A stretch of DNA of 64,000 bases from Kofleriaceae bacterium. Lineage in GTDB: Bacteria > Myxococcota_A > Polyangia > Haliangiales > Haliangiaceae. Location of the stretch: contig JAGPCY010000015.1 of NCBI GenBank assembly GCA_018057825.1, positions 86,200 to 150,199 of the forward strand, in the 5' to 3' direction. Below, piece after piece: positions 18,482 to 32,967 of the stretch; within the stretch, counting starts at the first letter, position 1; every line of letters begins with the position of its first letter. The notes beneath the pieces were generated by a model that was not told the DNA's origin, searched no databases, and saw nothing but the letters and a program-made list of their open reading frames with translations. The position numbers and the translations under genes are program-made.

Positions 18482-18590
18482 CTCCGTCTCGGTCTCGGTC
18501 TCGGTCTCGGCCTCCGCCTCGGTCTCGGCCTCGGCCTCGGTCTCGGCCTCCGCCTCGGTCTCGGTCTCGGCCTCCGTCTCGGCCTCCGCT
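18482..18590 (+). repeat. CTCGGY hexanucleotide array 1 (about 18 units)
   Basis: A run of CTCGGT and CTCGGC units with some CTCCGY variants begins 15 nt after the stop codon of the NlpC/P60-like gene and ends just before the convergent acetyltransferase gene. It is not part of a credible reading frame. Confidence 0.95.
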
Positions 18591-20808: not shown

Positions 20809-21435
20809 CTACACGATGCCGTCGAGGGGGCCCTGGCCGGCGCGGATGACGACGACCTCGTCGCCGTCGACCTCGAGCACGGTCGACGGCGTCTCCTCGG
20901 TGGCCTCGGCGTCGACCACGACGTCGAGGTGGTTGCCGAAGGCGTCGAGGATCTCCTCGGCGTCGCGGCACGCGGCCTCGGCCCCGGGCGCGATGGCCGA
21001 GGTCGTGAGGAGCGGCCGCCCCAGGCCGGCGACGATCGCGGCGGCGATCGGGTGGCTGGTGATGCGGATGCCGACGGTGCGGCGCTTGGCGTCGGTCAGG
21101 GTCCGCGGCACCTCGCGGGTGGCCGGCACGACCAGCGTGTAGGGCCCGGGGAAGATCCGCTGGGCCAGGCGGAACGCGGTCTGGTTCAGGTGGGCGTACT
21201 GCGAGGCGCTCGACAGGTCCGGGCAGATGAGGGCCAGGCGCTGGCTCTTCTTCATCTGCTTCATGCGCGCGATCCGCTCGATCGCGTCGCGGGCCTCGAT
21301 CGCGCAGCCGAGCGCGTAGACCGAGTCGGTGGGGTAGGCGGCGACCCCACCGCCGTGGAGGATCTCGACCGCCTTGGCGATCTTGCGCGCCGGCGGTTCG
21401 CCCCACGGCTCGAAGATCAAGCGGAGCGCGCTCAC
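20809..21435 (-). CDS. yciO: YciO/YrdC/Sua5 family protein
   Basis: The 208-residue protein is a single YrdC domain. The opening [28 protein letters not shown], the [15 protein letters not shown] segment and [22 protein letters not shown] follow E. coli YciO more closely than TsaC. The family binds double-stranded RNA and ATP, and TsaC/Sua5 members make threonylcarbamoyl-AMP for tRNA t6A. YciO proteins have weak or no such activity. The GTG start overlaps the rlmE stop codon by 4 bp. Confidence 0.88.
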
Positions 21436-22049
21436 GACCCGCGCCCCTTGAACCCGGCCGCGGTCACGTACTGCTCGATCGAGATCTGGCGACTCGACGC
21501 GGGTTTCATCACCTTCACGGTGGCGAAGCGGCTCCGGCACAGGGCGATGAGCTTCTGGAAGTCCGGGCCCTGGAACAGCTTGCCGACGAAGCGCCCGCCC
21601 GGCGCCAGGGTCAGGGTGGCCAGCTCGAGGGCGCGCTCGAACAGGGCCTCGCTGCGCGCCTGATCGAGGTGGCGGATGCCCGTCGTGTCGGGCGCCATGT
21701 CGGACAGGACGACGTCGAAGGCCGGCAGGTCACCGAGGAGATCGGCCGGCACCACGGTGAAGACGTCGCCGACCAAGAGCCGCGCGCCCGGCACGCCGGG
21801 GATCGCGACCCGGTCGATGCCAACCATCGCGCCGCCGTCGCCGATCCGAGTCCGGGCGTACTGCAGCCACGACCCCGGCGCGCAGCCCAGGTCGCACACG
21901 CGATCGCCGGGGCGAAAGACCGCGATCGCGCGGTCGATCTCCTCGAGCTTGTAGACCGCGCGCGCGCGGAAGCCGGCGTCCTTGGCCCGATCGTGGAAGT
22001 GATCGTGGCGGACGCGGCGGTCGCCGAGCTTGGATCTGCCCTTGGCCAT
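21432..22049 (-). CDS. rlmE: 23S rRNA (uridine-2'-O)-methyltransferase RlmE/FtsJ
   Basis: The 205-residue protein carries the SAM site [11 protein letters not shown] and the K-D-K-E catalytic tetrad of RlmE: K34, D117 in LSDMAPD, K157 in VGKLFQG and E192 in ISIEQYV. RlmE 2'-O-methylates U2552 in the A loop of 23S rRNA. The start is placed at the MAKGRSK methionine, which matches the family N-terminus; seven more in-frame residues exist upstream. It is 103 bp downstream of rplC on the same strand and overlaps yciO. Confidence 0.93.
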
Positions 22050-22152
22050 GGCGGGACGACAAAACGACAACGCCGGCCGACAGCGAAGCTGACGACCGGC
22101 GCGACAGACAGGCGAGACGGACGAGGGAGGCTCGGTGACGAGCCCCCAGAAC

Positions 22153-22890
22153 CTAGCCGCGGCCGGCGGCGGCCTTCTTCGAGGCCTTGAGGGGGTTCTT
22201 CGAGCGAACCTCCTCCTTGCCCATGCCCTTGCGCTTGTAGGCGGTGCGGGTGGCGGCCTTGCTGACCACCACGTAGCCGTTGGTGCTGCCCGGGATCGAG
22301 CCGCGGACCATGATGCAGTTGTCCTCCGCGAGGATGCGGAAGAGCTGGAGGTTCTGCACCGTCACGACCTCGTTGCCCATCTGCCCGGCCATGCGCTTGC
22401 CCTTGTGGACGCGCTGCGGGGTCAGGCGGCAGCCGATCGAGCCGCCGTGGCGGAAGAACTCGTGGGTACCGTGGGTGGCGCGCATGCCCTTCATGTGGTG
22501 GCGCTTGATCACACCCTGGTAGCCCTTGCCCTTGCTCTGGCCCTCGACGTCGACGGCGGCGCCGTCGCCGAACACGTCGGACGGGCCGATGACCTGGCCG
22601 ACCGTGAAGGCCTCGAGCTCGGCGGCGGGGGCGCGGAACTCGCGCAGGACCCGGACCGGCTTGGTGTTGGCGGCCTTGGCCAGGCCGAGCTCGGCCTTGT
22701 TGGCGAGGCGCAGCGGCTTCTCGTCGAAGCCGAGGACCAGCGCGCTGTAGCCGTCCTTGTCGACGGTGCGCTTGCCGACCACCACACACGGGCCAGTCTG
22801 GATCACGGTCACCGGGACGCGCTCACCGTCGTCGGCGAACACTTGCGTCATCCCGATCTTCTTGCCGAGTAGGCCCAATCGCATTGCCAT
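22153..22890 (-). CDS. rplC: 50S ribosomal protein L3, solitary gene
   Basis: The 245-residue product is a full L3: [13 protein letters not shown] at the N-terminus and the signature [45 protein letters not shown] in the middle. It has a Lys-rich tail slightly longer than usual. L3 starts large-subunit assembly and touches the peptidyltransferase centre. In most bacteria rplC lies in the S10 operon between rpsJ and rplD; here its neighbours are tatD and rlmE, with no other ribosomal gene. It has its own near-consensus promoter and an AGGAG site 9 nt before ATG. A second copy elsewhere cannot be excluded. Confidence 0.97.
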
Positions 22891-22899
22891 GGTCGTGGT

Positions 22900-22904
22900 C
22901 TCCT
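22900..22904 (-). promoter_or_regulatory. Shine-Dalgarno AGGAG of rplC
   Basis: AGGAG lies 9 nt before the ATG of rplC on the minus strand. It is one of few clear ribosome binding sites in the window. Confidence 0.8.
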
Positions 22905-22915
22905 GAGAGCGCGCG

Positions 22916-22944
22916 TATATACCGGCGGGGTATTCCGGTGTCAA
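22916..22944 (-). promoter_or_regulatory. Near-consensus sigma-70 promoter of rplC
   Basis: On the minus strand TTGACA (22944-22939) is followed after exactly 17 nt by TATATA (22921-22916). The -35 box overlaps the stop codon of tatD. The predicted leader is about 18 nt and includes the AGGAG site. It is the strongest promoter seen in the window. Confidence 0.85.
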
Positions 22945-23731
22945 GCCATCGGCGCCGGCGGCAAGCGGAAGATCCGCGCGGTGTTGGCGACCGTGGCGGC
23001 AGCGAGGGTCGGCAGCTCGACCCCGGCGGCCTGGGCGACCGCCGCTGCGGTGTGGGTGACGAAGGCCGGCTCGTTGCGCTTGCCGCGCTGGGGCACCGGC
23101 GCCAGGTACGGGCAGTCGGTCTCGACCAGGATCCGGTCGAGGGGGACCACCGCCACGGCGTCGCGGATCGGCTGGGCGTTCTTGTAGGTGACGATGCCGG
23201 AGAACGACACGTAGCAGCCGAGGGCGACGTAGGCCGCGGCGTCGGCCGGCGTGCCGGTGAAGCAGTGGATGACGACCCCGAGCGCGGCGGCGTCGGTCTC
23301 GGTCAGGATCGCCAGGGCCTCGGGGTGGGCGTCGCGGACGTGGCACATGACCGGCTTGCCGACCTCGCGGGCCAGGCCGACGAAGCGGCGGAAGGCGTCG
23401 GCCTGGGCGGCCCGGTCGGAGTGGTCGTAGTAGAAGTCGAGACCGGTCTCGCCGACCGCGACCACCCGAGGGTGGCGGGCCAGCCGGGCGTGGACCTCCC
23501 ACCACGCCGGCGTCATCCGCCCGGCGTCGTGAGGGTGGGTGGCGACGGTGGCGAAGACGTCGGGGTCGCGCTCGGCCAGGGCCACCGCGCGCTCGGCGCT
23601 CGACGGATCGCCGACGGCGCCGACCACGATCATCCGGCGGACCCCGGCGGCGCGGGCCCGGGCCAGGACGGCGTCGCGGTCGCCGTCGAACTCGGGCCCG
23701 TCGACGTGGGCGTGGCTGTCGCATAGCTCGA

Positions 23732-23735
<4 letters not shown>
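22941..23735 (-). CDS. tatD: TatD family metal-dependent DNase
   Basis: The 264-residue TIM-barrel protein has the TatD metal site: H8 and H10 in CDSHAHVD, a glutamate in AVGETGLDFYY, histidines in MCHVRDAH and IHCFTGT, and the aspartate in LVETDCPYL. The family removes nucleotides 3' to 5' from DNA and takes part in DNA turnover and repair; the length is typical. The GTG start overlaps the stop of the upstream HEAT gene by 4 bp. Confidence 0.93.
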
Positions 23736-24742
<1,007 letters not shown>

Positions 24743-25744: not shown

Positions 25745-25957
25745 CTCGGTCTCGGCCTCGGTCTCGGTCTCGGTCTCGGCTTCCGTCTCGGCCTCGGTCT
25801 CGGCCTCGGTCTCGGCCTCGGTCTCGGCCTCGGTCTCGGCCTCGGCCTCGGTCTCGGTCTCGGCCTCGGTCTCGGTCTCCGTCTCGGTCTCGGCCTCGGT
25901 CTCGGCCTCGGTCTCGGCCTCGGTCTCGGCCTCGGCCTCCGTCTCGTCTCCGTCTCG
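25745..25957 (+). repeat. CTCGGY hexanucleotide array 2 (about 35 units)
   Basis: The longest of the three arrays fills the gap between the convergent PilZ and lipoprotein genes. Units are CTCGGT and CTCGGC with a few CTCCGT variants. Confidence 0.97.
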
Positions 25958-28462: not shown

Positions 28463-28494
28463 CGGGGTGGCGTAGCACGCGGACTGGTGGTCGC

Positions 28495-28645
28495 CGAGGC
28501 AGAGACCGAGGCCGAGGCCGAGACCGAGACCGAGACCGAGGCCGAGACGGAGACCGAGACCGAGACCGAGGCCGAGACCGAGGCCGAGGCGGAGACCGAG
28601 ACCGAGACGGAGACCGAGGCCGAGGCCGAGGCAGAGACCGAGGCC
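28495..28645 (-). repeat. CTCGGY hexanucleotide array 3 (about 25 units)
   Basis: On the plus strand it reads GAGRCC; on the minus strand it is CTCGGY. It begins within 5 nt of the stop codon of the minus-strand lipoprotein gene at 28649. Its orientation relative to the preceding gene is therefore the same as in arrays 1 and 2. Confidence 0.95.
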
Positions 28646-28648
28646 GCG

Positions 28649-32892: not shown

Positions 32893-32967
32893 TGGAGCCG
32901 ACGGCCGGGTATGATCCGGCGACCTGCGGTTTACGAAACCGCTGCTCTACCACTGAGCTACGTCGGC
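32893..32967 (-). tRNA. tRNA-Thr(CGU) with encoded CCA and an unusual T loop
   Basis: The 75-nt minus-strand sequence folds into a full cloverleaf. The acceptor is GCCGACG/CGTCGGC, the D stem GCTC/GAGC, the anticodon stem GCGGT/ACCGC with loop TTCGTAA (anticodon CGT), and the T stem GCCGG/CCGGC, followed by T and encoded CCA. The T loop reads ATCATAC, whereas TTCRANY is almost universal: T54 and A58 are replaced by A54 and T58. The gene may be functional or an early pseudogene. Confidence 0.85.

Follow-up and report, generated by a model that had tools for sequence, protein, structure and literature searches.

Displacement of the gene for ribosomal protein L3 from the S10 cluster in a Kofleriaceae genome and its relatives

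Background

The gene order rpsJ-rplC-rplD is widely conserved across bacteria. The closest described counterpart of the gene analysed here is rplC of the Escherichia coli S10 operon: both belong to the same family (TIGR03625), and the gene is present as a single copy in its genome. However, it is not found between rpsJ and rplD, but stands alone between tatD and rlmE with a promoter-like site of its own. It lies in a stretch of 64 kb of a draft Kofleriaceae genome, which we call the window.

The two adjacent genes rplC and rlmE encode L3, a protein of early 50S assembly, and RlmE, the A-loop methylase of late 50S assembly. Two further systems are relevant for relatives of the window's genome. 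The infC gene has an AUU start codon, and termination-reinitiation is known in overlapping genes. The rlmE genes of one family outside the window's class (f38) resemble both in that they would have a non-AUG start a few nucleotides after a stop codon; they differ from both in that the codon standing at the start is in most cases GTC or GTT and that the pair is rplC-rlmE. We know of no natural use of GTC or GTT as start codons.

Single-gene operons for ribosomal proteins, namely rpsT, rplY and rpmE, are described for E. coli (PMC10931766). The rplC gene of the window would be similar to such monocistronic units, as it has its own predicted promoter and a probable terminator. The autoregulated units that this source treats use structured leaders or operators (PMC10931766), whereas the predicted leader in the window has only about 19 nt. 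A lineage-specific change in the order of ribosomal protein genes is described for the Aquificae, in which the ribosomal protein operons are rearranged (PMC3879981). There, whole operons are reordered, whereas here a single gene has been removed and its former neighbours are still in order.

Results

Identity and surroundings of the gene

The reading frame of rplC runs on the minus strand from an ATG at 22890 to a TAG at 22153 (Table 1). Its product matches the TIGR03625 (L3_bact) profile with an E-value of 1.4e-73 and 247 bits, well over the curated cut-off of 142.9, and covers profile positions 1-201 of 202; it is thus a full-length bacterial L3. Read 5' to 3' on the minus strand, the order of genes is the HEAT-repeat gene, tatD, rplC, rlmE and the gene for L-threonylcarbamoyladenylate synthase, with 50 nt between tatD and rplC and 103 nt between rplC and rlmE, which starts with ATG. 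Since rlmE reaches 163 bits on TIGR00438 against a curated cut-off of 300, its name is used in the sense of family similarity only. The position between tatD and rlmE that the initial annotation gave for rplC agrees with these profile matches and with the gene order.

Table 1. Positions in the window of rplC, its neighbours and its putative signals
Feature	Position	Strand	Basis and remarks
HEAT-repeat protein gene, upstream of tatD	23732..24742	-	weak repeat-type matches only
tatD-family nuclease gene	22941..23735	-	TIGR00010, E 1.4e-77; GTG start assumed at 23735
-35 element TTGACA (candidate)	22939..22944	-	sequence; overlaps the tatD stop codon TGA (22943-22941)
-10 element TATATA (candidate)	22916..22921	-	sequence; followed by the G+C-rich discriminator CGCGCGC
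Shine-Dalgarno site AGGAG	22900..22904	-	sequence; 9 nt before ATG
rplC, 50S ribosomal protein L3 (uL3), 245 aa	22153..22890	-	TIGR03625 profile match
Terminator-like hairpin, then TTGTCGTTTT	22070..22102	-	fold of 22155-22049; directly before rlmE
rlmE/rrmJ, FtsJ-type 23S rRNA 2'-O-methyltransferase gene	21432..22049	-	TIGR00438, E 5.4e-48, under the curated cut-off
L-threonylcarbamoyladenylate synthase gene, downstream of rlmE	20809..21438	-	TIGR00057, E 1.8e-52, above the cut-off

The S10 cluster of the same genome

The window's genome is a draft of 8.89 Mb in 84 contigs and is 99.7% complete. Profile searches with PF00297 and TIGR03625 both return one L3 gene, which is the copy in the window (C64:108463-109074). 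The gene rpsJ (C51:69671-69955) is found on a different contig, inside which it directly precedes rplD (from C51:70072), with 65 nt between the coding regions. Judged by position and by blast among loci, the S10 cluster there holds rpsL, rpsG, fusA, rpsJ, rplD, rplW, rplB, rpsS, rplV and rpsC, and by eye we could see more ribosomal protein frames and secY; rplC was not found in it. Because the single L3 gene is missing from the S10 cluster, the gene has been displaced and not duplicated.

The initial annotation had placed this L3 gene outside the S10 operon and had pointed to the S10 operon of the same genome, where either a gap or a second rplC might be seen. The claim holds, as the S10 cluster stands on another contig without rplC, and what we see there is the gap.

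Spread through the class and the phylum

We asked how common this arrangement is among related genomes. The numbers given here for L3-L4 linkage are overlaps among the matches listed for both genes. In the window's class, L3 lies within 5 kb of L4 in none of 120 such genomes; seven of them have both genes on one contig, at distances from 175 kb to 8.1 Mb. In the other classes of the phylum the two are linked in one of 112 genomes (31 genomes of the window's class in the same sample are excluded from this count), and the linked one is G193. Seen from the L4 side, rpsJ directly precedes rplD without L3 in all 30 loci of the window's class. The other classes (L160-L180, L202, L212) show this state in 22 of 23 loci, the exception being L202 of G193 with the canonical order rpsJ-rplC-rplD.

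In the collection of named organisms, L3 adjoins S10 and/or L4 in 64 of 64 loci of other phyla, among them Desulfuromonadales, Binataceae, Bacteroidota and others. Another 16 named loci (L079-L092, L094, L097) have L3 without S10 or L4 on the available stretch, which is short in some cases. Kofleriaceae, along with other Myxococcota MAGs, come closest among the named relatives. Thus, the displacement is no oddity of this genome but is class-wide and, in our sample, nearly phylum-wide.

Among 151 genomes of the phylum we were not able to find any match over the cut-off to TIGR02268, which we take to be a Myxococcus-type family (one weak match occurs in G048); therefore, the Myxococcus group seems to be absent from the sample. 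For Myxococcus xanthus we only have locus tags from three papers: MXAN_3298 is EF-Tu (PMC12004946, PMC9601211) and MXAN_3303 is rpsS (PMC10313047), so that four tags remain in between, one fewer than the five genes of the canonical order, rpsJ, rplC, rplD, rplW and rplB. This numbering by itself hints that M. xanthus shares the displacement. Literature searches in open-licence papers gave no report of an rplC gene away from the S10 operon for this group. The relocation is real, old and lineage-wide.

Conserved neighbours

The surroundings of the displaced gene are conserved as well. On the same strand, rlmE follows rplC in 32 of 35 loci of the window's class, from 16 families, and the three loci without an adjoining rlmE all belong to family f14. 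Upstream, tatD lies within 300 nt of rplC in 21 of 34 assessable loci, and beyond it a gene for a HEAT-repeat protein as well as metG and holB are seen repeatedly. Note that L212 (G210), with L3 13 kb from L4, was left out of the neighbourhood count.

Outside the class the gene contexts were read by eye. In a first sample of 18 loci, mostly one per family and two of them unassessable, rlmE follows rplC in four of 16 (f34, f38, f40 and f42). A second sample of 20 loci (f34, f38, f46, f48 and f49) gave 16; its families were chosen for their nearness to f34 and f38, so this sample is not random. Since the neighbours differ, both in f14 and in most of the first sample, there must have been either several moves of the gene or several independent displacements. 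The simplest account is one ancestral move ahead of rlmE, followed by later moves. In the f14 loci L184 and L188 we noticed, by eye, a frame similar to RluA-type pseudouridine synthases in the place of rlmE.

Promoter and terminator

The -35 and -10 elements in front of rplC are separated by 17 nt. The initial annotation considered this to be the best promoter of the window, and the site is indeed the only one with a 10/12 promoter-like match in the 64 kb, a candidate by sequence; four others reach 9 (spacers of 16-18 nt). A separate promoter scan of the window listed none before rplC, because it accepted only -10 elements that end in T.

From a set of 100 L3 loci, 14 duplicates, 10 loci that failed the rule for finding the start and one whose upstream stretch was too short were removed before scoring for such elements. 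Of the remaining 75 genes, which include the linked one of G193, 52 have a promoter-like element of at least 9/12 within 150 nt upstream, compared with 5.1% of 1500 dinucleotide shuffles. The window's own family (f1), with TTGAC-N17/18-TATA or TACA in all ten genomes scored, shows the element most clearly, together with f2, f3, f12 and f23. In f14 it is weak, with scores of 6-7 in four genomes, and among the displaced genomes of other classes no more than seven of 16 attain 9. With 10/12 hexamer positions at a spacing of 16-18 nt, kept in relatives, the site in the window is a predicted RpoD (sigma70) promoter. The discriminators of the 52 promoter-like sites have a raw mean G+C content of 0.80; a G+C-rich stretch after the -10 element would fit stringent control.

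Since a terminator-like hairpin with a T-rich tail stands before rlmE, rplC looks monocistronic in the window. The core of the hairpin was also returned by a terminator scan, in which one hit was found and 0.6 were expected by chance.

Control of expression

The initial annotation had stated that leaving the S10 operon would remove normal autogenous control. To our knowledge, control by L4 through the S10 leader is limited to gammaproteobacteria. For E. coli, this control via a structured S10 leader is described in PMC10931766. In the window the predicted leader of rplC has about 19 nt, and the predicted leaders of relatives range from 19 to 107 nt. We were not able to find an excess of structure in 49 relatives' leaders when compared with shuffles (mean folding z of 0.05, one leader below -2), nor, in a search of L064 and L001, any Rfam match at gathering score by rplC or in the S10 cluster; two matches far under the gathering scores were taken as chance. 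On the basis of the folding and the Rfam search we rejected a regulatory RNA leader before rplC, and the gene does not have the structured, conserved 5' leader of an autogenously controlled unit, although it may be controlled by another route. The claimed loss is unsupported, since it presupposes in this lineage the L4 leader mechanism, for which we found no evidence at either locus.

Descent of L3

In an L3 tree of 91 rows the families and genera within the window's class are followed, including the kin of the window gene, which suits vertical descent. The deep branches are weak and the displaced L3 proteins do not form one supported clade. In this tree a long branch places the L3 of G193 with Desulfuromonadales, whereas its S10, L4, L23, L2 and S19 stand beside those of G192 (FastTree, support 0.94). 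This conflict could come from re-insertion by transfer, from contamination of the bin or from tree error. The bin that holds L202 (G193:C28) has a contamination of 6%.

Start codons of rlmE in relatives

The comparison covered 30 rlmE loci of the class that contains G200 and f38 and is not the window's own. In 13 loci of f38 (L249-L257, L263, L271, L274 and L278) the stop codon of rplC lies 4-8 nt before the position homologous to the rlmE start, and the codon at this position is GTC in nine, GTT in two, ATT in one and GCG in one; in L268 (f62) the start would overlap the stop codon of rplC and the codon is GCC. Hence, at these 14 junctions with the rplC stop at most 8 nt away, ATG, GTG or TTG is never found at the start position or at the next codon. 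On the other hand, a standard start is present in 14 of 15 loci of the same class that lack rplC or have its stop at least 11 nt away, the exception being L272 (GTT, stop 35 nt away). One locus, L259, has an ATG at an unclear distance and was set aside; a Fisher test with L259 in the second group gives 2e-7, a value that overstates the difference, as it treats related genomes as independent.

Homologues of these rlmE genes have ATG (MARYDRKD...) where those of f38 are without a standard start. In the window's class, a similar rule finds a standard start in 30 of 32 rlmE genes, and one of the two exceptions, L187, has an in-frame Met inside the match. We also saw CTG at close rplC-rlmE junctions in L211, L213, L240 and L242.

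The distances of 4, 6, 7 and 8 nt in f38 represent all three frame relations between rplC and rlmE. A fixed frameshift that would yield an L3-RlmE fusion is therefore not favoured, and termination-reinitiation at a non-AUG codon is the better explanation. Of nine f38 loci with rlmE, four do have a standard codon in frame further upstream, at 56-191 nt and within rplC, and in the other five we found none. The data suggest that, in f38, ribosomes go on to make RlmE directly after completing L3. Because of the upstream codons in some loci and the relatedness of the genomes, we regard this coupling as a strong lead and not as proof. The arrangement expected for termination-reinitiation is seen in the 13 f38 loci; the coupling does not extend to the window, where a gap of 103 nt and a hairpin separate the two genes and rlmE has an ATG.

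Discussion

We consider it very probable that the window holds the sole uL3 gene of its genome, moved ahead of rlmE in the ancestor of the class or earlier, inherited vertically and served here by its own RpoD-type promoter. In the ancestor of the class, or earlier in the phylum, rplC would have left the str-S10 cluster for a site ahead of rlmE, often in the order tatD-rplC-rlmE, and would have been passed on vertically since. In the window, it would be transcribed from the predicted promoter in the gap after tatD and translated from the strong Shine-Dalgarno site in its short leader, and its transcript probably ends at the hairpin before rlmE. The single copy in the assembly, the absence from the S10 cluster, the lineage-wide displacement, the conserved neighbours and the conserved promoter-like element are computed results. 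The predicted promoter is presumably the active one, and it may be shared growth-rate or stringent control, instead of an RNA leader, that keeps the output of L3 in step with the other ribosomal proteins.

A draft of 84 contigs could in principle mislead, with the window gene being a paralogue of an rplC that the S10 cluster keeps or has lost through misassembly. Within the limits of the draft assembly we rejected this explanation and regard it as extremely improbable: there is one L3 match, rpsJ and rplD are contiguous within a contig, and relatives have the same state, including the single-contig genomes G130, G155, G197, G259 and G307. It is also very improbable, if less so, that a gene transferred from another phylum came to lie beside rlmE and took over from the resident L3. 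The weak deep branches of the L3 tree leave room for a very old transfer; within the class, however, the tree tracks taxonomy and no outside group nests there with support, so that a foreign origin is not supported by it.

The class-wide pattern probably stems from a single relocation. For the phylum as a whole, the various neighbourhoods, the lack of one supported clade of displaced L3 and the canonical rpsJ-rplC-rplD of G193 could instead be explained by several independent displacements from the S10 cluster. This seems rather unlikely to us, since G193 alone is linked among the 232 genomes compared (those listed for both genes) and independent loss would need many events; furthermore, the affinity of its L3 to Desulfuromonadales and of its S10-cluster proteins to G192 suits re-insertion or tree error. 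A different question is whether rplC and rlmE stay paired for a functional reason, being expressed together as a unit of 50S biogenesis, with the synthesis of RlmE tied to that of L3 by termination-reinitiation in some families. The pairing over 16 families, the contrast in start codons between close and distant junctions and the three frame relations, which go against a fixed frameshift, make this conceivable. On the other hand, the window has a gap, an ATG and a terminator-like hairpin between the genes, the pair is missing in most sampled families outside the class, and descent alone can preserve gene order. We therefore consider functional pairing possible, at somewhat less than even chances. 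More tentatively still, and with considerable doubt, the supply of L3 in the phylum may have lost its tie to the S10 cluster and, in part of the phylum, gained a new one to rlmE, with reinitiation in f38 4-8 nt further on at a non-AUG codon (mostly GUC), which would keep RlmE proportional to L3.

Returning to the displacement by relocation and vertical descent, a lineage that has been without rpsJ-rplC-rplD for a long time tests the need to make L3 together with L4 and L23, and bears on what substitutes for co-transcription. The f38 junctions are stranger than the relocation itself: with apparent GTC or GTT starts after a stop codon, they would make the choice of the start codon in reinitiation testable.

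Some minor observations concern the assembly and the rest of the window. In many drafts, a contig begins some 500 bases ahead of rplD and thus immediately in front of rpsJ; a repeat, for instance a second tuf, may be what interrupts the assembly at this point. In the window's genome, fusA is directly followed by rpsJ with no tuf between them, and the sole EF-Tu match over the cut-off lies about 25 kb upstream of rpsJ (L221, G000:C51:43567-44757; L064:9400-9653). Repeats of 6 bases (CTCGGT/CTCGGC and variants) form arrays in the window at 18482-18586, 25745-25957 and 28494-28646, and at L064:5787-5943. Across the genome, a 22-base array pattern was matched 4917 times in forward and 5466 times in reverse orientation, compared with 2 and 0 for the reversed control. 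Finally, the window contains a tRNA-Thr (cgt) gene at 32893-32967 on the minus strand.
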